Below are positions 34,064 to 47,900 of a DNA stretch of 64,000 bases, in pieces. Where the stretch lies: positions 310,001 through 374,000 of the forward strand of contig NZ_CP056048.1 in assembly GCF_021559775.1 (NCBI RefSeq). The letters run 5' to 3'. Position 1 is the stretch's first letter, and each line of letters opens with the position of its first letter. A model generated the notes under the pieces. The model ran no database searches. It was not told where the DNA came from and saw nothing but the letters and a program-made list of their open reading frames with translations. The translations under genes and the position numbers were made by a program. This DNA comes from Gillisella vitis (GTDB lineage: Bacteria; Pseudomonadota; Alphaproteobacteria; Rhizobiales; Rhizobiaceae).

Positions 34064-34792
34064 ATGTGGGAACTTGATGGGAAAGCAATCCTCGTCACTG
34101 GTGCCAGCGGTGGAATCGGTGGCGCGACAGTGACGAAGCTGAAAGACGCCGGGGCCAAGGTCTATGCGGCCGGAAGGTCACGAGACGAGCTTGAAAAGCT
34201 GGCCGCGCAAACCGGTTGTGAAACGTTGATTTTCGATCTCACCTCGGAGGACGAAATTCGCAGGGCAATAGAGGGTTTACCATTGTGGGGGGTGGTGAAC
34301 TGTGGTGGCTTTGGCGGCGAAATCGCCACCCCGCAGGAAACCGACATTTCTATCTTCGACAAAGCCATTGCCATCAATGTGAGAGGCGCGCTTCTCGTCA
34401 CCAAATACGCATCGCGCTCAATGATCAAAGAAGGCAAGGGCGGGTCGATCGTCAATGTCTCGAGCCAGGCAGCACTGGCAGCATTGCCGGGCCATGTCTC
34501 CTATGCGTCTTCCAAAGCGGCACTGGACAGCATTACCCGTGTCAGCGCGCTTGAGCTTGGCAAATACAAAATTCGGGTCAATAGCGTCAATCCCACGGTG
34601 GTTATGACGGAGATGTCCGCATTTTATTGGGGTCGCGCGGAGATAGGCGAACCCTTCCTGCAAAAAATGCCGTTGGGACGATGGGCGACCGTCGATGACA
34701 TCGCAAAGCCGATCCGCTTCTTGTTGAGTGAGGAGGCGTCAATGATCACCGGTGTCTCTCTCCCAATTGACGGTGGCTTTACAGCCTGTTGA
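34064..34792 (+). CDS. SDR reductase resembling L-xylulose/dicarbonyl reductase (DCXR)
   Basis: A 242-residue short-chain reductase with TGASGGIGG (12-20), VNCGGFGG, catalytic Ser in NVSSQAA and YASSK. The late segment NSVNPTVVMTEM and the terminal PIDGGFTAC closely resemble L-xylulose reductase, which ends in the same GGFxAC form. Such enzymes interconvert ketoses and polyols with NADP(H). Placed last in the importer operon, it probably feeds the ketose to the two-kinase fusion and aldolase encoded upstream. It overlaps the convergent M20 gene by 14 bases. Confidence 0.85.
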   Translation: MWELDGKAILVTGASGGIGGATVTKLKDAGAKVYAAGRSRDELEKLAAQTGCETLIFDLTSEDEIRRAIEGLPLWGVVNCGGFGGEIATPQETDISIFDKAIAINVRGALLVTKYASRSMIKEGKGGSIVNVSSQAALAALPGHVSYASSKAALDSITRVSALELGKYKIRVNSVNPTVVMTEMSAFYWGRAEIGEPFLQKMPLGRWATVDDIAKPIRFLLSEEASMITGVSLPIDGGFTAC

Positions 34793-36185
34793 TCGCCTCA
34801 TCGCTCAGGCCGTGCAAGATCCGCACCCAGGATCTGGTGCCTTTGTGAAAAGAGGTGAGGTTGTATTTTTCATTGGGCGAGTGAACGCAGTCATCGTCCA
34901 GCGAAAAGCCTACCAACAAGGAGTCCATGCCGAGCATGGACTGAAAGCTGCCGACAATCGGGATCGATCCGCCGCCGCCGACAACAATGGCGGGCTTTGG
35001 CCATTCCTGTGAAAGAGCCGCCTTGGCCGTAGCGAGGATCGGCGAGTCATAGGGCAATTGAATGGCAGGCGAGGCTCCTTCGGCGTGAAATTCAACCCGG
35101 CAATCCCTAGGTAACTTTGAGGTTACATAGGCGCGAAAACTGTCGCGGATTTTTTGCGGGTCCTGTTTTCCCACCAGACGGAAGGATACCTTGGCCATGG
35201 CCTCGGCAGCAATCACGGTCTTGAAGCCCTTGCCAGTATAGCCGCCGGACATGCCGTTGATCTCGGCGGTCGGGCGGGCCCAGAGCAATTCCAGAACGCT
35301 ACGGCCTTTTTCGCCGGAGGGTACGGAAAGGCCGATATCCGTTAGGAATGATGGTTGGGTCTTCTCCAGATCCGCCCAGACGGCCTTGATATCGGGCGGT
35401 GTTTCTTCAACGCCATCGTAAAAGCCGGGCAGGGTCACGGCACCGGTTTCATCATGCAGGCCAGCCATGATGTCGCTCAGGACATGCAACGGATTGGCTG
35501 CGACGCCACCATATCCGCCCGAATGGAGGTCGCGGCTGGCGGCCTTGATGGTGATTTCCTCACCGACCAGACCACGAAGGCTGGCGCAGATCGCCGGTGT
35601 TTGCGTGTCCCACATGCCGGTGTCGCAGACCATGGCAAAATCGGCCCTTAACTCCTGGGCATTGGCCTCGAGAAAAGGCTGAAGCGACGGCGATCCTGAT
35701 TCTTCCTCGCCTTCGAAGAGAATGGTCACACGCACCGGCAGCCCACCCTTGATGTCCTTGAAGGCGCGCAAAGCTTCGATGAAGGTCAGGAGCTGTCCCT
35801 TGTCATCCGAGGTACCGCGTCCGGTGATGATCTTTTCTCCGGTTGAACCGTCAAGAATGGCTGGGTCGAACGGGTCGTTTTGCCATAAGTTCAGCGGGTC
35901 CACCGGCTGAACATCGTAATGGCCGTAGAACAGTACATGCGGGCAGTCCGCGCGCTGCCCCTCATGATGAGCAACCACCATCGGATGGCCTGACGTGTCG
36001 CGCACGGATGCGGCAAAGCCCAATCCGCTCAGATAGGTCGCCAGGAAATCCGCAGCCTTGCGGCAATGCCGGCTATAGGCCGGATCGGTGGAAATCGAGG
36101 GGATACGCACCAGATCGAACAGTGTTTCCAGACTGGAGGGCAGATTGTCATCGACACGGGCGAGCACGGTATCAATTTCGGTCAT
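34779..36185 (-). CDS. M20-family dipeptidase
   Basis: A 468-residue zinc peptidase with the M20 motifs in order: HPMVVAHHEG, LFYGHYDVQPVDP (metal His/Asp), GRGTSDDKGQ (bridging Asp), LFEGEEESGSPS (catalytic and metal Glu) and DLHSGGYGG in the dimerisation domain, then GGGGSIPIVG near the end. It resembles carnosinase-type dipeptidases and has no signal peptide, so it cleaves imported dipeptides in the cytoplasm. It is the last gene of a three-gene operon with the PLP lyase and a FadR-type regulator, 42 bases after the lyase. Confidence 0.9.
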   Translation of the reverse strand: MTEIDTVLARVDDNLPSSLETLFDLVRIPSISTDPAYSRHCRKAADFLATYLSGLGFAASVRDTSGHPMVVAHHEGQRADCPHVLFYGHYDVQPVDPLNLWQNDPFDPAILDGSTGEKIITGRGTSDDKGQLLTFIEALRAFKDIKGGLPVRVTILFEGEEESGSPSLQPFLEANAQELRADFAMVCDTGMWDTQTPAICASLRGLVGEEITIKAASRDLHSGGYGGVAANPLHVLSDIMAGLHDETGAVTLPGFYDGVEETPPDIKAVWADLEKTQPSFLTDIGLSVPSGEKGRSVLELLWARPTAEINGMSGGYTGKGFKTVIAAEAMAKVSFRLVGKQDPQKIRDSFRAYVTSKLPRDCRVEFHAEGASPAIQLPYDSPILATAKAALSQEWPKPAIVVGGGGSIPIVGSFQSMLGMDSLLVGFSLDDDCVHSPNEKYNLTSFHKGTRSWVRILHGLSDEAINRL

Positions 36186-36227
36186 GGGCAGATTTCCAGT
36201 CGGTCATGGGATGGATGTTTGCAAAGA

Positions 36228-37400
36228 TCAGTCTGTTCGGGCCGCCGCCATCGCCGCCTGCAAATCGCTCCACAGCGCCTCGGTCCCCTCAAGCCCGACA
36301 TGGAGACGCACAGACAGCGGATCGACGCCGAAGGCATCCGCGAAACTCGGCGGCGCTTTCTGGTTGGCCACCACATCGCCGGGGACGACAAGGCTTTCAT
36401 GACCACCCCAGCTGACGCCCAGTTTGAACAGCTGCAAATGGTCACAGAAGGTTTGAATATGGATGACATCCTTGAAGATGAAGGAAAACAGCCCGGACGT
36501 GCCATGCAGGCCCGGCGGCAAGACATTGTTCAGCGCCGGATGGCAGACTTTTTCGACGATATCGAGCGCCTGCAAGCGATGGGCAATCTCCAGCGCTGAG
36601 GCCTCATGCGCCTTCATGCGGATTGGCAATGTGCGCATACCCCGGATCAGCAGCCAGGCATCGAAGGGAGATAGTTTTCCACCGAGATAAGGCAGCGTTT
36701 CATTGCGGATACGATTGATCAGCTCCTTGGGACCCGCCACCACACCGGCGACAACATCGCTGTGACCGCCGAGATATTTCGAGGCCGAATGCAGGACGAG
36801 ATCGACGCCGAGCGATAATGGCTTCTGGAACACCGGGCTTGCCCAGCTGTTGTCAATCACCGACAACACGCCGTGCTGTTTGGCAAGAGCGGCCAGCGCG
36901 CCGACATCATGGGCGTCCATCACCCAACTGGTGGGGCTTTCCAGATAGAGAAGCTTTGCGCCCGGAAGCGCCTTGGCCACGGCATCCTCATCGCGGCCAT
37001 CGACATAAGTCACCTCGATGCGCATGCGCTTCAGCATGGTCTCAAAGAACCTGTAGGCATCGGGATAGAGGTGGCGAACGGCAACGATCCGATCTCCCGG
37101 CTCGATAAAGCTCAGGACGGTCGAGGATATCGTCGCCATGCCACTGGCAAAGGCCAGCGCATCCTCGGCACCTTCCAGCCGTGCCAGCATCTCCTCGAAA
37201 ATCCGCACCGTGGGGTTTAGCCCGCGTGAATAAACCGGTCGAAGTTTTTCACCGCGATAGGTCGCGACCATCTCGTCATAGTCGCTGAAGGTGAACAGCG
37301 ACGTCTGCACAATCGGTGGCACCACCGCATCATAAGCATTGGCCTCATCATGCGCCGTGATCAGCGATGCCTGTTGCAGATAATCGAGAGCGTCGCTCAT
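36228..37400 (-). CDS. Cys/Met-metabolism PLP enzyme (cystathionine beta-lyase type)
   Basis: A 390-residue fold-type I PLP enzyme: YSRGLNPTVRIFEEMLARLEGAEDALAFASGMAT, YLESPTSWVMDAHDV, SVIDNSWASP and HSASKYLGGHSD with the PLP lysine. This order marks the trans-sulfuration family (cystathionine beta/gamma-lyase, methionine gamma-lyase). Cleavage of a C-S bond giving pyruvate, ammonia and a thiol is the usual outcome. Its gene overlaps the regulator by four bases (ATGA) and sits with a dipeptidase, which suggests use of Cys-containing dipeptides. The precise substrate is not readable. Confidence 0.88.
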   Translation of the reverse strand: MSDALDYLQQASLITAHDEANAYDAVVPPIVQTSLFTFSDYDEMVATYRGEKLRPVYSRGLNPTVRIFEEMLARLEGAEDALAFASGMATISSTVLSFIEPGDRIVAVRHLYPDAYRFFETMLKRMRIEVTYVDGRDEDAVAKALPGAKLLYLESPTSWVMDAHDVGALAALAKQHGVLSVIDNSWASPVFQKPLSLGVDLVLHSASKYLGGHSDVVAGVVAGPKELINRIRNETLPYLGGKLSPFDAWLLIRGMRTLPIRMKAHEASALEIAHRLQALDIVEKVCHPALNNVLPPGLHGTSGLFSFIFKDVIHIQTFCDHLQLFKLGVSWGGHESLVVPGDVVANQKAPPSFADAFGVDPLSVRLHVGLEGTEALWSDLQAAMAAARTD

Positions 37401-38131
37401 TTGGACATTTCCTTGATGTCTTCTTCCACCACGGCAAGAATTTTGAGGGTTTCACGGCGCGCACCTTCACTGTCCTGGTCAGCAATGGCGCTGAACAAGG
37501 TGCGATGAAAGGGGAAGGAGCGGCGGGCAAAATCGGGCCTATCGAACGGCTTATGCCAGAATCGCTCGAAGGCTTCGCGCATCTGTTCCAGAAGCTGTTT
37601 GAACAGCGGGTTATGCGTGGCATCGTAGATCGCCACATGGAAGGCTAGATCTTCCTTGCCGGATGTGCCCTTGGCCAGATGTACCCGCTCCATTTCATCA
37701 AGCTTTTCCTCGATGATCCGCAGATCGTCTTCCGTTCGGCGCATCGCGGCCAAGGCTCCGGCCTCAACCTCAATGCCGCGTCGGACTTCCAAGGTTTGCA
37801 AAAGAGCGTCGCGTAAATTCACCGTCTCCAGCATCAGCGGCATGTGGACCGTCGCAGCACTTACGGGCTGCAAAAGATAGGTACCGCTGCCTTTTCGGGT
37901 CTCCACCACGCCCAAGGCCTGAAACCGCCCGATCACTTCACGCACTGTTGAACGGCCAACACCGAGCGCGTTCATCAATTCGCGTTCCGTCGGCAGGCGA
38001 TCTCCACGCTTGAGACCGGCCTTGTTGATATAGCCGACCATGGCCCCACTTACCTGCTGGACACGGTCCAGCGGTGGCAGTGCGGCGATATGCTGGGTGT
38101 CGTTCAGCGCGTTTCCGGTGCGCATCGTCAT
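37397..38131 (-). CDS. FadR-subfamily GntR regulator
   Basis: A 244-residue regulator: an N-terminal winged helix (GDRLPTERELMNALGVGRSTVREVIGRFQALGVVETRKGSGTYL split over about 35 to 80) and a helical FCD ligand domain with DLAFHVAIYDATHNPLF and the FHRTLFSAI histidine. The start at 38131 is backed by AGGAGGAAG eight bases upstream; an in-frame ATG 45 bases earlier lacks this. It is divergent from the peptide ABC operon and co-transcribed with lyase and dipeptidase genes. A near-match to the GntR operator TNGTNNNACNA lies at 38166-38176 between them. Confidence 0.88.
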   Translation of the reverse strand: MTMRTGNALNDTQHIAALPPLDRVQQVSGAMVGYINKAGLKRGDRLPTERELMNALGVGRSTVREVIGRFQALGVVETRKGSGTYLLQPVSAATVHMPLMLETVNLRDALLQTLEVRRGIEVEAGALAAMRRTEDDLRIIEEKLDEMERVHLAKGTSGKEDLAFHVAIYDATHNPLFKQLLEQMREAFERFWHKPFDRPDFARRSFPFHRTLFSAIADQDSEGARRETLKILAVVEEDIKEMSK

Positions 38132-38165
38132 TGATATTTCTTCCTCCTGCCGACCGCTTGACAAT

Positions 38166-38240
38166 TGGTCTGACATCTTAGCAGTATGCCGCCCACGAAC
38201 AATGTCAAGGCGACCGAAGGGGCATTTGGTCTACTCCAAA
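38166..38240. promoter_or_regulatory. Candidate GntR operator sites between regulator and peptide operon
   Basis: TGGTCTGACAT (38166-38176) matches the FadR-type consensus TNGTNNNACNA at all but the last base. A second inverted repeat, TTTGG (38225-38229) and CCAAA (38236-38240) with a 6-base centre, lies closer to the binding-protein gene. Both share the TTGGTCT core and fit dual control by the 37397-38131 regulator. Confidence 0.45.
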
Positions 38241-38355
38241 AACTGAATTTCATCGTCGCGGATACGGCGGAAGAAATGAAAACAATAATTTATCCGCACA
38301 CATAAAAAATGAGGGTGCCGCAAAGGCGCGAACAAACAAACTGGGGATTAAAGGC

Positions 38356-39975
38356 ATGAAATTTCGTTTATTCGGCGGAGCTGTGGCCGTGTCGGTTGCT
38401 GCTTTGCTCACCAGCCCGGCTGTTGCTTTTGAAGGCAGAAGCGTTGTGGCGCCCGATTGCAATTATGGTGGCAAGATCAAGTCCATCGTGGCGACCGATG
38501 AGCACACGGTGACCTTCTCCATGTGCTCGCCCGATCCGGCCTTCAAAGCCAAGGCGGCCTTCGTACCCTTCGGTATCCAGCCCGCCAAGCATATCGAAGA
38601 AGCTGGACCGAAGAAGAAGCTGCTCGACAATCCGATCGGCACTGGACCCTTCAAACTGGAAAGCTGGAATCGCGGCGATTCCATCACCATGACCCGCAAC
38701 GAGAATTACTGGGGTGCCAAACCGGCTTTCGACAAGCTGGTGTTTCGCTGGAACCAGTCCGGCGCGGGCCGCCTGAATGAGTTGCGCTCCGGCACGGTCG
38801 ATGAAATCACCAATATCAGCCCTGATGATTTCGACAGCGTCAAGAACGATCCGGACCTGCAATTCCTGCCGCAGGAAAGCCCGAACATTCTCTATCTCGG
38901 CATGGTCAACACCGCCAAGCCCTTCGACAATGAGAAGGTGCGTCAGGCGATTGCCATGGGCATCGATCGCCAGCGCATCGTCGATAATTTCTATCCAAAA
39001 GGTTCGGTCGTCGCCAGCCATTTCACGCCCTGTTCGCTGCCCAATGGCTGCGCTGGCAAGGATTGGTACGGGTTTGATGCGAGCGCGGCTAAAAAACTGC
39101 TGGCCGATGCCGGATACCCGAATGGGTTCAAGACCAAGATCTACTACCGCGATGTGTTCCGCGCTTACCTGCCGGAACCAAGCGTCGTGGCTGTCGAATT
39201 CCAGACACAGCTGAAGAAAAATCTCGGCATCGATGCGGAAGTGGTTCCGATTGAATCGGGTAAATTCATTGATGATACCTCCGCTGGCCGGATCGATGGG
39301 CTCTATCTGCTGGGTTGGGGGGCTGACTATCCGCATGTCACCAACTTCCTCGATTATCACTTCGGCAAGACATCGAAAATGTTCGGCACCACCTTCCCGG
39401 AAATTACCGAGGGGTTGACCAAAGGCGGAACGATTGCCGAGACAAAGACCGCCGAACCGATCTATGCGGCCGTCAACGATGCCATCCGCCAGCATGTGCC
39501 GATGGTGCCGATTGTCCATGGCGCCGCCGCCTATGCTGCACGGGCGACCTTGAAGAATGCCATCGTCCGCCCCTTTGGCTCGCCGTTGTTGCAGGATTCC
39601 AATCCGGGCAAGGATACGCTGGTCTTCATGCAGAATGCCGAGCCGATCAGCCTCTATTGCGGCGATGAAACGGATGGCGAAACGCTGAATGCCTGCACGC
39701 CGATTACGGAAGCGCTGCTGGATTACGCAAAGGACAGCGGCGATATTGTTCCCGCTCTGGCCACCAGCTGTGATGCCAATGGGGATTCGACCGTTTGGAC
39801 CTGCAAGCTGCGGACCGGCGTGAAATTCACCGACGGCTCTGATTTTACCGCCAATGACGTGGTGGTATCCTGGGCGGCGGGCATTGATGCATCCAATCCG
39901 GCCCATGTCGGCAATACCGGCTCCTTCGACTATTTCTCCTCCCTCTGGGGCGGGTTGATGAACGCCAAGAAGTAA
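38356..39975 (+). CDS. Peptide ABC substrate-binding protein, apparently circularly permuted
   Basis: A 539-residue SBP type 5 protein with a signal peptide ending at AVA-F. The segment order is odd. The mature protein begins with GGKIKSIVATDEHTVTFSM...PDPAF, which in DppA/OppA follows the first 150 residues. The segment normally at the N terminus (TPITEALLDY, IVPALATSCDANG, LRTGVKFTDGSDFTANDVV) is at the C terminus, from about residue 440 to 535, ending SLWGGLMNAKK. The middle (NPIGTGPFKLESW, VRQAIAMGIDRQRIV, LLGWGADYPHVTNFL) is in normal order. The complete set of segments suggests a functional, permuted binder of peptides or related cations. Confidence 0.85.
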   Translation: MKFRLFGGAVAVSVAALLTSPAVAFEGRSVVAPDCNYGGKIKSIVATDEHTVTFSMCSPDPAFKAKAAFVPFGIQPAKHIEEAGPKKKLLDNPIGTGPFKLESWNRGDSITMTRNENYWGAKPAFDKLVFRWNQSGAGRLNELRSGTVDEITNISPDDFDSVKNDPDLQFLPQESPNILYLGMVNTAKPFDNEKVRQAIAMGIDRQRIVDNFYPKGSVVASHFTPCSLPNGCAGKDWYGFDASAAKKLLADAGYPNGFKTKIYYRDVFRAYLPEPSVVAVEFQTQLKKNLGIDAEVVPIESGKFIDDTSAGRIDGLYLLGWGADYPHVTNFLDYHFGKTSKMFGTTFPEITEGLTKGGTIAETKTAEPIYAAVNDAIRQHVPMVPIVHGAAAYAARATLKNAIVRPFGSPLLQDSNPGKDTLVFMQNAEPISLYCGDETDGETLNACTPITEALLDYAKDSGDIVPALATSCDANGDSTVWTCKLRTGVKFTDGSDFTANDVVVSWAAGIDASNPAHVGNTGSFDYFSSLWGGLMNAKK

Positions 39976-40053
39976 ACGTGAGGATTTCGGCGCTTCGGGC
40001 TAGGCGTAAATGTCTGGCCCGGCGTGTCTGACGGGGTCGTTTTTATACGTGGC

Positions 40054-40230
40054 TACCCCCTCTGGCTTGCCAGCCATCTCCCCCTCACGGGGGGAGATCA
40101 GGGTGAGTTAGATCATCCATTTCCTCGAACACGCAGAAAATTTTGATGCGTGAGATTTCGAGCAAAGGGTAAACTCCAAAGCGACCTCCCCCCTTGAGGG
40201 GGAGATGCCCGGCAGGGCAGAGGGGGGTAT
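40054..40230. repeat. Rhizobial-type intergenic inverted repeat element
   Basis: Two GC-rich arms, 40054-40100 and about 40183-40230, are imperfect inverted copies: TACCCCCTCTGGCTTGCCAG and CATCTCCCCCTCA on the left match the reverse complement of the right arm. Each arm also has an internal CTCCCCCTC/GAGGGGGAG palindrome. The form resembles the intergenic mosaic repeats (RIME-like) scattered in Rhizobium and Agrobacterium genomes. It fills most of the 329-base gap between the binding-protein and permease genes. Confidence 0.75.
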
Positions 40231-40304
40231 CCTGGCGCAGCCGCCTGTTGATGACACCTGACCAAACCAAACGGCGCTGTAAAATCTGGTAATGAGGACC
40301 TGCG

Positions 40305-41384
40305 ATGCTTGGATATGCAGCCAAACGCCTGCTGATTTCCATCCCGGTGATTTTCGGCATTCTGATCGTGACCTTCGCGCTTGCCCGGTTAATTCCTGGC
40401 GATCCCTGCAAGGCCATGCTGGGAGAAAAAGCCACCGCCGAGACTTGCGCTGGTTTCATCACGCGCTACGGCTTCGATAAGCCGCTGCCAACGCAGTTTT
40501 TCATTTATATGGGCGATATGCTGCGGGGTGATTTCGGCACATCGGTACGCTTCTCGCGGCCTGTGACGCAGATCATTATCGAGCGCCTGCCGATGACCGC
40601 CGAGCTTGCCGTGCTGGCGCTGATCACCGCGACCATTATCGGTGTCGGGCTCGGGGTTATTGCCGCCCGTCGTCATAATTCAGCAGCCGATGTCGGCACC
40701 ATGATCGTTGCCAATGCCGGCATTTCCATGCCGGTGTTCTGGCTGGGGTTGATGCTGGCCTATCTGTTCGGGGTGATGCTGCGCGGCACGCCCTTCTGGC
40801 TGCCGCCATCCGGGCGGCTTTCCGCCGGTGTCAATTCCATTCCCTTTTACGAGGTCTGGCACTGGCAATTGGCGGCGGAGAGCGGCTGGAGCAAGGTGCT
40901 CGAATTCTTCTCCAACTTTTATATTCTGAACGCCTTGATCACCGGCAATTGGACGGTGTTCTGGGATGCCATACGCCACATGATCTTGCCGGTCATGGCG
41001 CTCTCCACCATCCCGATGGCGGTGATTGCCCGCATGACCCGCTCCTCGCTGCTGGATGTGCTGGGGCGTGATTATGTCCGCACCGCCCGCGCCAAGGGCG
41101 TGCCAGAAAAACGTGTGGTCAGCGAACATGCGCTGGGCAATGCGCTGTTGCCGGTTGTCACCATTCTGGGCTTGCAAATGGGCGCCCTGCTCAGTGGCGC
41201 CGTGTTGACCGAAACTGTTTTTGGCCTGTCCGGCGTGGGGCGTATGCTGGTTGAGGCGATTTTTGCGCGGGACTATCCAGTCGTGCAGGCCTTCACGGTG
41301 ATGATTGCCGTGTCCTACGTGGCTATCAACCTGCTGGTGGACCTTTCCTACACCTATCTCGATCCTCGCATTCGCCCACAATAG
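40305..41384 (+). CDS. Peptide ABC permease, DppB type
   Basis: A 359-residue membrane protein opening with MLGYAAKRLLISIPVIFGIL and GDPCKAMLGE, typical of DppB. It has an enlarged periplasmic insert (FEV-like SIPFYEVWHWQLAAESGWSK) before the EAA loop DYVRTARAKGVPEKRVV. Six helices are apparent. GAGGACCTGCG precedes the ATG. It is downstream of the permuted binding protein, across a repeat element, and upstream of DppC/D/F-like genes, so the five form one importer. The unusually long insert may match the altered binding protein. Confidence 0.92.
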   Translation: MLGYAAKRLLISIPVIFGILIVTFALARLIPGDPCKAMLGEKATAETCAGFITRYGFDKPLPTQFFIYMGDMLRGDFGTSVRFSRPVTQIIIERLPMTAELAVLALITATIIGVGLGVIAARRHNSAADVGTMIVANAGISMPVFWLGLMLAYLFGVMLRGTPFWLPPSGRLSAGVNSIPFYEVWHWQLAAESGWSKVLEFFSNFYILNALITGNWTVFWDAIRHMILPVMALSTIPMAVIARMTRSSLLDVLGRDYVRTARAKGVPEKRVVSEHALGNALLPVVTILGLQMGALLSGAVLTETVFGLSGVGRMLVEAIFARDYPVVQAFTVMIAVSYVAINLLVDLSYTYLDPRIRPQ

Positions 41385-41392
41385 GACAGTTC

Positions 41393-42346
41393 ATGACGCG
41401 CTTGAATAGTGTATCGGCCAGTGCAGCAGAGGCCATTCTCGAAGATGGCCTGATTGGTGAACCGGTCGCCCAATGGCGGAGAACCTGGGGACGGCTGCTC
41501 AGACTGCGCTCCGGGCAGGTCGGCTTGTTCATCATTGGCATGCTGATCCTGATTGCCATTTTCGCACCGGTTCTTGCTCCTTATGATCCCGATCAGGTGT
41601 TGATCGGTGTCGAGCAGGTCAAGCGCCGCGAGCCGCCCTGTGTGCATCTGCTTGGATGTGACGCCAGCCGTCCGCAGCATATCATGGGTATCGATGGCAA
41701 TGCCCGTGATTCCTTCTCGCGTATTCTCTATGGTACGCGCGTCAGTCTGGTCATTGGGCTGACCACCGTTACCTGCGCGCTGTTCTTTGGCGTTCTACTG
41801 GGGGCGATTGCCGGGTATTTCCGGGGTTGGGTGGACAATATCATCATGCGGATCATGGATGTGATCCTCGGCTTTCCGTCTTTGCTGCTGGCGATTGCCA
41901 TCGTTGCGGTTCTGGGACCGGGCATTCGCAATGCATTGCTGGCTATCTCCATCGTCTCGGTTCCCGCCTATGCCCGCGTCACCCGTGCCAGTGTTCTGTC
42001 GGTGAAAACCTTCGATTTTGTCGCGGCTACGCGGGTGCTGGGTGGCAGCAAGTGGCGCATCCTGTTTCAAAGAGTGCTGCCCAATGCCATCACGCCGATT
42101 GTGGTGCTGGCAACGCTTGGAGTGGCCACCGCCATTCTCGATGCCGCCGGTCTCAGCTTCCTTGGCCTTGGCGCACAGCCGCCAACGCCGGAATGGGGGA
42201 CGATGCTGGGGGCTGCCCGCAACGAGATCTTTTCCGCGCCGCATCTGGTGTTCTTTCCTGGCCTTGCCATCATGCTGACCGTGCTTGGCTTCAACCTTCT
42301 CGGAGACGGGCTGCGTGATGCCCTTGATCCGCGGCTCCATACGTGA
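41393..42346 (+). CDS. Peptide ABC permease, DppC type
   Basis: A 317-residue partner permease: a long cytoplasmic N terminus, the first helix ([23 protein letters not shown]), a periplasmic insert with [20 protein letters not shown] before the usual [15 protein letters not shown], and the EAA loop [15 protein letters not shown]. The insert replaces the shorter HLLGTDxxGRD of ordinary Dpp[17 protein letters not shown]-like [12 protein letters not shown] near the end confirms the family. Start 8 bases after the DppB stop. Confidence 0.92.
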
Positions 42347-42353
42347 GGACAGC

Positions 42354-43370
42354 ATGACCCGGCCTATTCTGGAGATCCGCGATCTCACCACCCATTTCCA
42401 AACCCGATCCGGCACCGCCCGCGCCGTCGATAAGGTTTCGCTGTCGCTGGAGGCGGGACAAACGCTCTGCGTTGTCGGCGAGAGCGGCTGCGGCAAATCG
42501 ATCACCGCGCTGAGCATCATGGGGCTGGTGCCTTATCCCGGCAAAATCATCGGCGGCGAAGTGCTGCTGGATGGAGCCGATCTGCGCAGCATGTCGCCGA
42601 TGGACCTCAGCAAGGTGCGCGGCAACCGGATTTCGATGATCTTTCAAGATCCGTCGTCCTCGCTCAATCCGGTCCATACCGTCGGGCGGCAGATTGCCGA
42701 GGCTTACCGCCTGCATAAAAACATGGGCAAGCAGGAGGCGGAAGTGGCAGCAATCGCCATGCTGAAAGCCGTCGGCATTCCCGATCCCCAACGACGTATG
42801 AAGGCCTATCCGCATGAAATGTCCGGTGGCATGGCGCAGCGGGTGATGATTGCCATGGCGCTGGCCTGCCAGCCGGAAGTGTTGATTGCCGATGAGCCGA
42901 CCACCGCGCTGGATGTGACCATTCAGGCGCAAATTCTGGATTTGATGCGCGATTTGCAGCGTGATTTCGGCACCGCTATCATTCTGATCACCCATGATCT
43001 CGGTGTGGTTGCCGAAATGGCCGATCATGTCGCCGTGATGTATGCGGGGCAGGTGGTTGAGCTTGCCGATGTCCGAACACTGTTCAAGTCGCCCAAGCAT
43101 CCCTACACGCAAGCGCTTTTGCGCTCAGTGCCGGTGCTGGGCGAATCTCCTGATATGCTGGAAGTCATCGATGGTCGTGTGCCGCAATTGACCCATCTGC
43201 CGCAGGGCTGTCTGTTCGCGCCGCGTTGCACAGCCCGGCGCGAGGCCAATGAACCGCGCTGTCTGACCGATGTTCCTGCACTGACCGAAATCCACAAGGC
43301 CCATCACTGTCGATGCTGGCTGACCGAACCGGCGACGCTTGCCGGTGAACAAGAGGTACAGCCCGCATGA
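42354..43370 (+). CDS. Peptide ABC ATPase, DppD type
   Basis: A 338-residue ATPase: Walker [11 protein letters not shown], signature [16 protein letters not shown], Walker [15 protein letters not shown], and a C-terminal oligopeptide-transporter tail with the Cys-rich [18 protein letters not shown] that in this family binds an iron-sulfur cluster. The ATG at 42354 follows GTGAGGACAGC; an in-frame start 69 bases upstream lies within the permease gene. It pairs with the next ATPase, whose gene it overlaps by four bases. Confidence 0.93.
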
Positions 43371-44341
43371 GCGCCCTGATCGAAATGAACGGCATCAAAA
43401 TGGCTTTCGCCGTGACCGGTGGGGCTTTCCAGCGGGTGAAAGGCTATGTCAACGCCGTCAATGATGTCAGCCTGACGATTGAGCGTGGCCGCACTCTGGG
43501 CGTGGTGGGCGAAAGCGGCTGCGGAAAATCCACACTGGCCCGTATCGTGGTGGGTCTGTTTGCGCCGACCGCAGGCGAAATCATCTTTGATGAAAAGCAG
43601 ATTGCCGGACCCGGCATGGGCGTTGATTTTGCCTCCAGCCGCCGCATCCAGATTGTCTTTCAAGACCCCTATTCCTCGCTGGATCCACGGCTGCCGATTG
43701 GTGACTCCATTGCCGAAGGCCTGGTCATCCATGGCATTGGTGACAAGGCCAGTCGTCGCAAGGCGGTTGCCGATATGCTGGAACTGGTCGGCCTGCCGCC
43801 GCAGGCTGCGGACCGCTATCCGCATGAGTTTTCAGGCGGTCAGCGCCAGCGTATCGGCATCGCCCGCGCCCTCATTCTCCAGCCGGAATTTCTGGTGTGT
43901 GATGAGCCAACCTCTGCACTGGATGTGTCGGTACAGGCGCAAATCCTCAATCTTTTGAAGCGGCTGAAAACCCAGCTCAACCTGACCATGATGTTCATTT
44001 CCCACAATCTGGCCGTGGTGCGCCACATCGCCGATGACGTGGTGGTGATGTATCTCGGCCATGCGGTGGAACTTGGTCCGGTGGAAGCGCTGTTTACCAA
44101 TCCGCGCCATCCCTACACCAAGGCGCTTCTCTCCGCGACGCTGATTGCCGATCCAGACCGACGCGGCGAGCGGATCAAGCTGGTTGGCGAAATGCCATCC
44201 CCGCTCAATCCACCCACGGGCTGTCCCTTCCATCCTCGTTGCACACTGGCCAACGACCGCTGCAAGGCGGAGATGCCGCTGATGACCATGACGGACACGG
44301 TCAGGGTTGCCTGTCATGCCGTTGAAGAAGGTCGGGCTTAA
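43367..44341 (+). CDS. Peptide ABC ATPase, DppF type
   Basis: A 324-residue ATPase with Walker [11 protein letters not shown], signature [16 protein letters not shown], Walker [15 protein letters not shown] and the C-terminal [14 protein letters not shown] cysteine pattern. A short insert ([18 protein letters not shown]) before the Walker A loop is usual for DppF/OppF. The start overlaps the upstream stop as ATGA, so translation is coupled. With DppD it forms the ATPase heterodimer of the importer. Confidence 0.93.
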
Positions 44342-44361: not shown

Positions 44362-45507
44362 ATGTCCCCACCTCTATCAGCCCCGAAAATCTCTATGGAA
44401 GAGCGCGTTCTGCGATTAGAGACCCTGCGCAAGACCATGGCGGAGCAGAATATTGGCGCAGTGCTGATCGGCTCCACCGAGAGCCTGCGCTATTTCACCG
44501 GGCTGGTCTGGCATGGCAGCGAGCGGCTTGTGGGTGCGGTGATTACGGCATCGGATCTCGTTTATGTGGTGCCGGGCTTTGAGCGCAGCCGGGTGGAGAC
44601 ATTGCCGCATCTTCCCGGCGACATCAGGGTGTGGGAAGAAGATGAAAGCAGCGCCGCCCTTGTCGCGTCCGTCCTGCCTCTCGCGAGCATCCTTGCCGTG
44701 GACGATTCCGTACCGCTTTTCGTCTACAATGCGCTCAAGCGCGAAATCACGGCAGATCGGCTGATCGATGGCGGACCGTTGTTGCGCGGTCAACGCCTGC
44801 GAAAATCCGCTACAGAAATCGCCATCATCCAATATGCGATGAACCTGACACTGGATGTGCAGCGCAAAGCCCACGCCATGATCCGCCCCGGCATTGCGGC
44901 ATCCGAAGTGGTGCGTTTTATTGATGACGAACACCGACGCCTAGGCGCCAGCAACGGCTCCACCTTCTGCATCGTCTCCTTTGGCGAGACCACGTCCCTG
45001 CCGCATGGGGCCGATGGCGAGCAATATTACCAGCCGGGCGATGTGGTGCTGGTCGATACCGGTTGCCGCATTGATGGCTATAACTCCGACATCACCCGCA
45101 CCTATATGCTGGAGGAGCCAACAGCCGAGTTTGCCCGCATCTGGGATATCGAGCGGGCAGCGCAGCAAGCTGTTTTTGATGCGGCCCGGATTGGCGCGAC
45201 CTGTGGTAGCCTGGATGATGCCGCCCGCGACGTGCTGACCCGCCACGGCCTCGGCCCGGATTACCAGCTTCCCGGACTGCCCCATCGCGCCGGTCATGGT
45301 CTTGGCCTTGAGGGACATGAGGAGCCCTATATCGTGCGCGGCAATACTGTCCGTCTTGAAGAGGGAATGTGCTTTTCCTGCGAACCGATGATTGTCCTGC
45401 CCGGACAATTTGGCCTGCGTCTGGAAGACATCATTTACATGACCTCCGATGGGCCGAAATGGTTTACCCAGCCCGCCAAGGGGCCGACGGAGCCTTGGTC
45501 AGGATAA
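44362..45507 (+). CDS. M24-family metallopeptidase (Xaa-Pro dipeptidase type)
   Basis: A 381-residue pita-bread enzyme. The N-terminal creatinase-like domain (AVLIGSTESLRYFTGLVWHG) is followed by the catalytic domain with five metal ligands in sequence: DTGCRIDGYNSDITRTY (two Asp), HRAGHGLGLEGHEEP (His), MCFSCEPMI (Glu) and GLRLEDIIYM (Glu). It cleaves Xaa-Pro or related bonds. No signal peptide is seen. Placed 20 bases after the DppF-like gene, it likely processes peptides imported by that transporter. Confidence 0.9.
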   Translation: MSPPLSAPKISMEERVLRLETLRKTMAEQNIGAVLIGSTESLRYFTGLVWHGSERLVGAVITASDLVYVVPGFERSRVETLPHLPGDIRVWEEDESSAALVASVLPLASILAVDDSVPLFVYNALKREITADRLIDGGPLLRGQRLRKSATEIAIIQYAMNLTLDVQRKAHAMIRPGIAASEVVRFIDDEHRRLGASNGSTFCIVSFGETTSLPHGADGEQYYQPGDVVLVDTGCRIDGYNSDITRTYMLEEPTAEFARIWDIERAAQQAVFDAARIGATCGSLDDAARDVLTRHGLGPDYQLPGLPHRAGHGLGLEGHEEPYIVRGNTVRLEEGMCFSCEPMIVLPGQFGLRLEDIIYMTSDGPKWFTQPAKGPTEPWSG

Positions 45508-46391: not shown

Positions 46392-47900
46392 ATGAAACTG
46401 AACAGAATATTGACCGCGCTGCTCGTCATCGCCGCTTTTGCCGCACCTGTTGTGGCCGCAGACCTCAAAATCGGGTTGTCGGAAGACCCCGATGTTCTCG
46501 ATCCCGCGCAGTCGCGCACGTTCGTGGGACGTATCGTTTATACGGCCATGTGCGACAAACTGGTCGATGTCTCGCCCGACCTGAAGATCATCCCGCAGCT
46601 TGCCACCGGCTGGGCCTGGAGCGAAGGCGGCAAGGTTTTGACCATGACGCTGCGCCAGGGCGTGAAGTTTCACGACGAAACACCCTTCAACGCGGAAGCG
46701 GTTGTCGCCACCATCCAGCGCAACATGACCATGCCGGAATCGCGGCGCAAGAGCGAGCTTGCCTCGGTTGAAAAGGTCGAGGCTATCGGCAGCGATACGG
46801 TGAAATTCACCCTCAAGGCCCCGGATTCGACCCTGCTAGCACAATTGTCAGATCGGGCCGGGATGATCGTCTCGCCCAAGGCCGCCAAGGAATTGGGCGC
46901 TAATTTCGGCAGCCATCCCGTCTGCGCCGGGCCGTTCAAATTCGTCGAGCGGGTGCAGCAGGACCGGATCGTGCTGGAGAAATTTGCCGATTACTGGAAC
47001 AAGGATCAGGTCTTCATCAACAAGCTCACCTATCTGCCGATTGTCGATAGCACGGTGCGCCTCGCCAATTTGCGCTCCGGCGATCTCGACATGATCGAGC
47101 GGGTGGCGCCGACCGATGCCGCCTCCATCAAGTCCGATGGTAAGCTGGACTTTGAACAGGCGGTCGGTGTCGGTTACATGGCGATGTATGTTAATATCGG
47201 CAATGGTCCTCGCGCCAATAACCCGCTTGGCAAGGACAAGCGCCTGCGTCAGGCCTTCTCGCTGGCCATCGATCGCGAAGCACTGAATCAGATCGTCTTT
47301 GAGGGGACGGCTCTGGCGGGCAATCAGCCATTTCCGCCGGTGAGCCCCTGGTATGACAAGCGGATTCCCGTGCCTGCCCGCGATGTCGAAAAGGCGAAAG
47401 CCCTGATCAAAGCCGCTGGCTTTGACCGGGTGCCGATTGAACTCCAGGTGTCCAACAGCGCGACTGTGTTGCAGATGATGCAGGTCGTGCAATCGATGGT
47501 CTCTGGGGCAGGTTTTGACGTGACGCTGAAGACGATGGAATTTGCCACTATGCTCAACGAGCAAACGGCTGGAAATTACCAGATCAGCCGCTCGGATTGG
47601 TCCGGGCGCGTGGACCCGGATGGCAATCTGCATCAGTTCGTCACCTGCAAGGGTGGCATCAACGATACCAAATATTGCAATCCCGCCGTCGATACGCTGT
47701 TGAACGAAGCGCGGCAATCCACCGACGACGCCGTGCGCAAGCAGAAATATGATGCGGCTGATGAAATCCTGAACGATGATTTGCCGATCATCTATCTCGG
47801 TCATCAGTCCTGGCTCTGGGCGTCCAGCAAGAAGATCACCGGTTTTGTGCCGTCACCGGATGGAATGATCCGCCTGACGGGCATGCAAAAGGCCAATTGA
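46392..47900 (+). CDS. Peptide/glutathione ABC substrate-binding protein (GsiB-like)
   Basis: A 502-residue SBP type 5 protein with a signal peptide ending at VVA-A and the normal segment order: DPDVLDPAQSRT, LRQGVKFHDETPFNAEAVV near residue 80, PVCAGPFKFVERV, LRQAFSLAIDREALNQIV and DWSGRVDPDGNLHQFV. AGGGGAATGGC precedes the ATG. The operon (binding protein, two permeases, gamma-glutamyltransferase, fused double ATPase) matches the composition of the glutathione importer GsiABCD plus a glutathione-cleaving enzyme. Glutathione or another gamma-glutamyl peptide is the inferred ligand. Confidence 0.88.
   Translation: MKLNRILTALLVIAAFAAPVVAADLKIGLSEDPDVLDPAQSRTFVGRIVYTAMCDKLVDVSPDLKIIPQLATGWAWSEGGKVLTMTLRQGVKFHDETPFNAEAVVATIQRNMTMPESRRKSELASVEKVEAIGSDTVKFTLKAPDSTLLAQLSDRAGMIVSPKAAKELGANFGSHPVCAGPFKFVERVQQDRIVLEKFADYWNKDQVFINKLTYLPIVDSTVRLANLRSGDLDMIERVAPTDAASIKSDGKLDFEQAVGVGYMAMYVNIGNGPRANNPLGKDKRLRQAFSLAIDREALNQIVFEGTALAGNQPFPPVSPWYDKRIPVPARDVEKAKALIKAAGFDRVPIELQVSNSATVLQMMQVVQSMVSGAGFDVTLKTMEFATMLNEQTAGNYQISRSDWSGRVDPDGNLHQFVTCKGGINDTKYCNPAVDTLLNEARQSTDDAVRKQKYDAADEILNDDLPIIYLGHQSWLWASSKKITGFVPSPDGMIRLTGMQKAN

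Follow-up and report, generated by a model that had tools for sequence, protein, structure and literature searches.

A putatively dipeptide-binding cluster C solute-binding protein of Gillisella vitis with a circularly permuted chain order

Circular permutation is widely used in engineered binding-protein sensors. Naturally permuted receptors of ABC transporters seem to be rare in print, and the one that we found, TpMglB-2 (Tp0684) of Treponema pallidum, belongs to cluster B: it is a circularly permuted glucose-binding protein classed as ‘Type Ic / Cluster Bc’, for which ligand binding and a ligand-induced conformational change have been demonstrated (PMC4990184). The available portion of that report describes the permuted part as poorly conserved, with 13% identity to EcMglB, and as adding a fourth hinge crossover (PMC4990184). 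The first-pass annotation of the DNA studied here proposed a permuted solute-binding protein (SBP) of type 5 and considered such a permutation undescribed. This holds for cluster C, for which we found no description of a permuted SBP in the open-access literature; as a general statement it does not, as natural permutation of an SBP was already known from cluster B (PMC4990184, available portion). What appears to be new here is natural permutation in cluster C.

The protein, hereafter P0001, counts among its best relatives by sequence and fold DppA of E. coli (1dpe, 1dpp, 8z1z) and HbpA/GbpA of Haemophilus parasuis (3m8u, 3tpa). As in DppA, the residues that salt-bridge the dipeptide are retained and the operon encodes DppBCDF-type partners; unlike P0001, DppA and HbpA have the conventional chain order, and the DppB loop of 40 residues compares with 58 in the permease partner of P0001. 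From what can be seen of the TpMglB-2 report, P0001 is analogous to that protein in carrying N-terminal strands of the N lobe at its C-terminus. TpMglB-2 differs in fold class, lineage and sugar binding, P0001 lying outside cluster B by Pfam, and the permuted part of P0001, in contrast, can still be recognised from its sequence and ends in only a short closing stretch. The genes concerned lie in a window of 64,000 nucleotides, the whole stretch of DNA that was analysed:

34779 to 36185, minus strand: M20 dipeptidase-like peptidase
36228 to 37400, minus strand: Cys/Met-metabolism PLP-dependent enzyme
37397 to 38176, minus strand: GntR/FCD regulator, divergent
38356 to 39975, plus strand: P0001, circularly permuted SBP type 5 protein, putatively Dpp-type dipeptide-binding (profile, alignment, AF2 model)
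40305 to 41384, plus strand: DppB-type permease with enlarged TM3-TM4 periplasmic loop (58 residues against 40 in DppB)
41393 to 42346, plus strand: DppC-type permease with enlarged TM1-TM2 periplasmic loop (43 residues against 35 in DppC)
42285 to 43370, plus strand: DppD/OppD-type ATPase, open reading frame as listed; the true start is probably downstream
43367 to 44341, plus strand: DppF/OppF-type ATPase
44362 to 45507, plus strand: M24 peptidase (creatinase N-terminal domain and peptidase M24), downstream in the same direction
46392 to 47900, plus strand: P0002, normal-order SBP type 5 paralogue of the second operon, used as a control

A check of the reading frame upheld the coordinates first assigned to P0001, with an ATG at 38356, a stop ending at 39975 and 539 residues between. 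Its sole Pfam match (E up to 0.1) is PF00496 (SBP_bac_5), with an E-value of 1.7e-82 and 277.9 bits against a cut-off of 32.4. The match is split into two stretches, the better of which begins only at profile position 55, while P0002 matches the same profile in a single stretch from position 1. P0001 thus departs from the usual SBP_bac_5 chain order, which we did not take as a rule of membership. A profile search that is blind to order labels it an ordinary SBP_bac_5 protein, which is a trap for annotation. Against the DppA equivalog NF043070 it scored 170.1 bits, below the curated cut-off of 1005.

Alignment to individual proteins placed the two parts of the chain in swapped positions. In a phmmer search of PDB chains, residues 38-409 matched residues 149-526 of Yersinia pestis DppA (5f1q) and residues 420-531 matched residues 29-147, the latter stretch with an i-Evalue of 1.3e-7. 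Smith-Waterman alignment to E. coli DppA paired residues 41-408 with 152-525 (query 25-410, score 330; maximum of 200 shuffles, 62) and residues 421-530 with 30-146 (query 411-539, score 136; 500 shuffles, mean 31.5 and maximum 50). Both pieces also aligned in swapped places to P0002, which was rightly singled out as an internal comparison of normal order: residues 41-254 with 126-344 (score 165, best of 200 shuffles 56) and residues 448-505 with 51-107 (score 76, best of 500 shuffles 59). At the level of sequence, these alignments confirm that the N-terminal ~115 residues of a cluster C, DppA-like protein have been relocated to the C-terminus of P0001, and they bear out the proposal that the segment opening ordinary SBP type 5 proteins closes this one. 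The accompanying statement that the permuted core starts directly after the signal peptide was right about the swap only, as about 15 residues (FEGRSVVAPDCNYGG) separate the apparent cleavage site from the core. The chain can be divided as follows:

38356 to 38427, plus strand: signal peptide, residues 1-24, ending in AVA and followed by FEG; read from the sequence, no lipobox by a simple rule
38428 to 38472, plus strand: new N-terminal tail, residues 25-39, with Cys35 (homologue alignment, AF2)
38473 to 39585, plus strand: core, residues 40-410, corresponding to DppA ~152-526, with R269 and D324
39586 to 39627, plus strand: junction joining the ancestral C- and N-termini, residues ~411-424
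39616 to 39972, plus strand: displaced N-terminal segment, residues ~421-539, corresponding to DppA 30-147

The full-length AF2 model of P0001 has a pLDDT of 90.1 and a pTM of 0.84, and ten-residue blocks from residue 411 onward range from 84 to 98. Predicted alone (52 sequences), the C-terminal segment reached a pLDDT of 61.1 and a pTM of 0.47, with 54 of 129 residues below 50. Since it is confident within the full chain and poor alone, it needs the remainder of the chain for a confident fold, as would be expected of a displaced part of lobe I. In the VIA fold comparison, model residues 26-418 aligned with residues 114-535 of E. coli DppA (8z1z_F; Z 26.5, 388 residues, rmsd 2.7), and the listed rows range from Z 24.0 to 28.6, mostly over ~350-390 aligned residues. 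The other ~120 residues of the model lack a sequential alignment, none of the 50 VIA rows listed passing model residue 420. As predicted, the model has the two-lobe cluster C fold. When the segment was compared by itself, every listed row, 50 from Foldseek and 50 from VIA, was a solute-binding protein by title. The top Foldseek match is DppA 1dpe at E 5.6e-3, with none at or below 1e-3 among the matches listed; the VIA rows listed are weak (Z up to 4.0) and fall within the first ~195 residues of the chain, for example 1dpe 10-113.

The model therefore suggests, from its confidence and from sequential fold matches rather than a permutation-aware superposition, that the C-terminal segment fills its slot in lobe I. 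The C-terminal ~115 residues could instead be an extra domain, a partial duplication attached to a lobe I that is complete without them. SBPs can have added domains, and a second SBP is fused to the permuted SBP in two genomes. Such a domain beside a complete N-terminal lobe is not seen in the prediction, where the DppA match of the full model begins only at about residue 114; the segment alone has no confident fold (pLDDT 61.1), and no ORF scanned carries a second copy of the segment ahead of the core. We consider this alternative very unlikely.

A permutation seen in one genome might be an error of assembly or cloning, so the order of the two parts was examined in relatives. A scan of genome contigs yielded 88 relatives, the best 80 of which were taken as loci, and two profiles (residues 36-410 and 418-534) were built from an alignment of 48 permuted homologues. 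With these, the first 100 loci gave 67 permuted and 40 normal-order ORFs, and the loci up to L165 gave 104 permuted, 63 normal and 3 core-only distinct ORFs, counts that are not a prevalence because the loci were picked by similarity to P0001. Permuted ORFs occur in Chloroflexota, Pseudomonadota and Acidimicrobiia. The same order in independent assemblies of several phyla excludes a rearrangement of the assembly, and an artefact is as good as ruled out by these homologues. Sequence order, the predicted structure with its fold comparison and the 104 distinct like-ordered ORFs together support a natural circular permutation.

The distribution of the permuted form is uneven. At 1e-100, a match was found in 1 of 398 Pseudomonadota genomes, namely the source genome, and in 2 of 199 genomes of the same family, the source genome included. 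At 1e-60, 56 of 400 Chloroflexota genomes had a match in a sample centred on a genome (G586) picked for having the gene. By query range, 57 of 59 Chloroflexota match rows span core and C-segment in permuted order; the exceptions are a normal-order protein (G738) and a match to the core only (G815). In the phylum of an Acidimicrobiia genome, 4 of 296 genomes had a match, the centre of this sample likewise having been picked for the gene. Plasmids gave no match at E 1e-60, and among viral contigs the one stretch that fitted a pattern encodes no relative. Within the source genome, 20 of 33 match rows were examined, of which one is permuted (P0001) and 19 loci (18 distinct ORFs) are normal; the two forms also co-occur in loci L058 and L136.

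Several permuted SBPs have unusual arrangements. In L063 (4921-7530, plus strand), a lipoprotein-type signal and an SBP_bac_3 domain of amino-acid type, covering nearly the whole profile, are fused ahead of the permuted SBP, and an 818-residue ORF (L171/L107) has the same fusion in a second genome, with two receptors in one chain. In L104 (1489-3822, minus strand) and L170, a single open frame encodes a Peripla_BP_6 domain followed by the permuted SBP, and its start is cut off by the end of the contig. Two tandem pairs of permuted SBP genes occur in one genome, G939 (L138:5041-8482 and L139:4429-7847, both minus strand), so head-to-tail copies of such genes exist.

The junction between the two parts is uniform. 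In all 101 ORFs measured (of the 104 permuted), the core and C-segment models are separated by 6-9 residues, namely 7 or 8 in 97 ORFs and 6 or 9 in the remainder. The break itself becomes visible when the normal-order protein L155, which reads ...EYYEYMWGGFDDDSVITAVTAIDEYTV..., is compared with the permuted proteins, which end in ...EYYSYLWDGLMN and start with ...CDYGGKIKSI.A.DE.TV...; among the seven normal-order proteins compared, this stretch varies in length.

Phylogenetic analysis was restricted to rows with at least 80 bits and at least 280 profile columns, which kept 156 of 167 two-part ORFs; 74 of the 156 usable rows (47 permuted, 27 normal) were sampled for IQ-TREE. The core tree has a single change of order with support 100/100, present in 100% of 200 bootstrap trees, and no normal-order row within the permuted group, with the warning that the long branches of L135 and L136 meet. 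The C-segment tree (120 columns) likewise has a single change (100/99), with weak inner forks. A normal-order ORF (L029_278-1852) had appeared inside the permuted group in a first FastTree; it was a weak row, with a core score of 25 bits, and was gone after row filtering. The filtered FastTree has no normal row inside, and local support at the permuted base is low (0.186 after re-rooting). By both trees the permutation looks like one old event, the sampled permuted proteins lying on one side of one branch.

The nearest unpermuted relatives found are DppA-like proteins of Chloroflexota (L134 and the L144-L161 set), close to which the permuted clade attaches; they differ in their normal order and in DppB-type loops of at most 39 residues where measured. 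In the C-segment tree, L155 is the nearest normal-order protein and L158 lies two steps further out; in the core tree, both branch off around the attachment point of the permuted clade, a part of the tree that is poorly resolved. These relatives bear on a chimeric origin, in which an SBP gene, having lost the part for its N-terminal segment, acquired the corresponding part of another SBP gene at its 3' end, a possibility that the TpMglB-2 authors raised for their own protein (PMC4990184, available portion). By raw score, the top normal-order relatives do differ between the core (L134/L153) and the C-segment (L155/L158). However, core and C-segment both attach near the same DppA-like Chloroflexota proteins, as far as the coarse 120-column C-segment tree can tell, and the normal-order L155 resembles the permuted proteins on either side of the break. 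A chimera is therefore unlikely.

We favour, with a probability of roughly 0.86 for the full explanation, that P0001 is a natural permutant of a DppA-like cluster C SBP and the receptor of a DppBCDF-type importer. Observed chain order, its conservation, the single tree branch, predicted fold, conserved residues and gene context carry this reading, which further proposes a duplication route, a transfer and its direction, disulfides, a ligand and a transport function. A short turn would have linked the ancestral termini, and the chain would have been opened anew at DppA ~147/152, in the loop that leads from the ‘EYY.Y.W.GF’ helix to the next strand. The chain would fold to the ordinary two-lobe form, with the C-terminal ~115 residues replacing the N-terminal strands of lobe I.

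The change would have arisen once, among the DppA-like proteins of Chloroflexota or of a lineage close to them; the simplest route would be a tandem duplication, after which the outer parts were lost. An intermediate of this route, with two C-segments or two cores in one ORF, was found in none of 1697 ORFs of at least 200 residues in loci up to L165, and neither of the gaps flanking the gene (38170-38360 and 39970-40310) shows remains of a duplicated copy, profile scores there not exceeding -1.1 bits. Ten of the sampled Pseudomonadota rows, P0001 included, group on a single branch (100/95) of the core tree, surrounded by proteins of Chloroflexota and Acidimicrobiia, which we read as a probable horizontal transfer of the operon; the permuted SBP and its operon may thus have passed to Alphaproteobacteria. 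One further row, from a Gammaproteobacteria metagenome bin (L061), forms a deep branch with a Chloroflexota protein.

The permuted family is also marked by cysteines. Counts of these and of R269/D324 cover 102 of the 104 permuted and 54 of the 63 normal ORFs, the others being too short or below 80 bits. Each of the eight positions tested has Cys in 88-101 of 102 permuted proteins and in at most one of 54 normal-order proteins: Cys35 (92 against 1), Cys57 (99 against 0), Cys226 and Cys232 (each 95 against 0), Cys435 (101 against 1), Cys447 (100 against 1), and Cys472 and Cys483 (each 88 against 1). In the AF2 model of P0001, the first hairpin (strands 41-48 and 51-56) lies between C35 and C57, and a C35-C57 disulfide, if the two pair, would staple the new N-terminus. 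The family that inherited the permutation may thus have gained up to four Cys pairs, one of them at the new N-terminus.

A lipobox was recognised by a simple rule in 71 of 101 permuted ORFs. Among the other 30 are the proteobacterial proteins, with soluble-type-looking signals, along with truncated ORFs and one or more clear lipoboxes that the rule overlooked (L123). The TpMglB-2 authors' idea of tethering was considered as the sole distinction of the permuted form and set aside: normal-order Chloroflexota relatives carry lipoboxes too (15 of 20), so tethering alone fails to separate permuted from normal proteins.

The first-pass annotation had also noted enlarged periplasmic inserts in both partner permeases and suggested co-adaptation. 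Both inserts are real, but that of the DppB-type permease enlarges one already present in E. coli DppB (40 residues). A permease of the 40305 type is the nearest permease for 97 of the 104 permuted ORFs; the seven others are two at contig ends (L013, L066) and five (L057, L135, L136 and both L139 ORFs) for which no such permease was found in the locus DNA. Measured between fixed anchors, the TM3-TM4 loop has 56-59 residues in 96 of 97 distinct permuted-side permeases and 8-40 in 45 distinct normal-side permeases (E. coli DppB 40, OppB 11, second operon of the window 17). The lone short loop on the permuted side (9 residues) belongs to L060_1542-2468, which was rejected as a permuted partner: it groups with OppB-type permeases, belongs to another operon of its locus and was mislabelled by the nearest-neighbour rule.

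The DppC-type loop has at least 42 residues in 62 of 63 distinct permuted-side permeases, the lone short one (35 residues) being L060_2472-3428, which adjoins L060_1542-2468. As it also has at least 46 residues in 3 of 19 distinct normal-side permeases, two of which come from normal-order proteins closely related to the permuted ones (L134, L169), this insert does not fully separate the groups. The loop picture was unchanged before copies were removed (51 and 20 normal-side rows). The expectation that inserted-loop permeases always accompany the permutation is thus strongly upheld for the DppB type, apart from the five ORFs that have none, and partly for the DppC type. The permease tree holds 52 sequences, 36 of them from the permuted side; it places 35 of these on a single branch (100/99), the exception being L060_1542-2468. 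The long TM3-TM4 loop and the permutation travel together, but as one lineage; because both traits follow that lineage and so amount to one independent event, co-adaptation is at most suggested.

Two permuted SBPs stand apart in their surroundings. The fast-evolving one in L136 (3119-6903) adjoins an oppositely directed normal-order SBP, and the nearby permeases are of other types; the long-branch one in L135 (5236-6996, minus strand) has no recognised permease in the 12 kb of DNA examined.

In E. coli DppA, R383 and D436 bind the carboxyl and amino ends of the dipeptide, and within the DppABCDF complex the scoop loop of DppB (E41/R42) is salt-bridged to the same residues (PMC12136057, available portion). 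Alignment places R269 and D324 of P0001 at these positions, so that P0001 appears to have the DppA-type charged pair. R269 is found in 100 of 102 permuted and 21 of 54 normal-order ORFs, and D324 in 101 of 102 and 29 of 54, the normal-order ORFs being of mixed type. In the scoop, the 40305-type permease of the window has GEK, compared with GER in DppB. Judging from these residues, P0001 would bind a free dipeptide or a dipeptide-like amino compound via R269 and D324 and hand it over to the long-loop DppB/DppC permease.

The operon encodes two permeases and two ATPases, and we examined the ~6 kb upstream of 16 proteobacterial loci (L001-L012, L015, L018, L044 and L056). An M20 peptidase, the commonest non-transporter neighbour tested, is present in 13 of the 16, and the PLP enzyme and GntR regulator occur together in 9; L014, with a shorter flank, has neither the peptidase nor this pair. 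An M24 peptidase follows in the Allorhizobium/Agrobacterium/Rhizobium loci L001-L006. By the same test, none of these M20, PLP enzyme, GntR and M24 neighbours was found in the Chloroflexota loci up to L066. The peptidase neighbours fit import and hydrolysis of dipeptides in part of the permuted SBPs, and the adjacent M20 and M24 peptidases would hydrolyse the imported product.

Instead of a plain dipeptide, the ligand may be a different compound, such as a sulfur-containing dipeptide, some other amino-acid conjugate or a metal chelate. Judging by match titles, many different ligands are bound within cluster C, and of the 16 proteobacterial loci with ~6 kb upstream, 9 have a Cys/Met-metabolism enzyme beside the cluster. 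Against this, both charged residues that hold the dipeptide ends in DppA are kept and a dipeptidase-like gene is present in 13 of the same 16 loci; we regard a different ligand as possible, though not the probable outcome. Within the window, the M20 peptidase and the Cys/Met-type PLP enzyme (34779-37400, minus strand) may hint at sulfur-containing dipeptides.

A wider proposal, which we hold tentatively and on balance doubt, is that the permutation is itself functional: it would change docking and opening, with the permease loop as the matching half, and the new N-terminus would have let a second SBP fuse. If so, the N-terminus, mostly lipid-anchored in permuted SBPs, would have moved to the ~147/152 loop and been stapled there by C35-C57, the 18-residue extension of the DppB TM3-TM4 loop would belong to a distinct docking mode, and an amino-acid SBP fused in front would make a two-receptor lipoprotein serving one importer. 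With recognisable sequence flanking the break, relatives of normal order, a partner permease that has changed in parallel and genomes carrying both forms, the case is a suitable system for studying the effect of chain order on folding, export, tethering and docking.

Finally, scans for promoters and terminators gave matches no more numerous than in shuffles. The ~330 bases between the SBP and permease genes (39976-40304), free of any coding relict, contain G/C-rich, repeat-like stretches recognised by eye.
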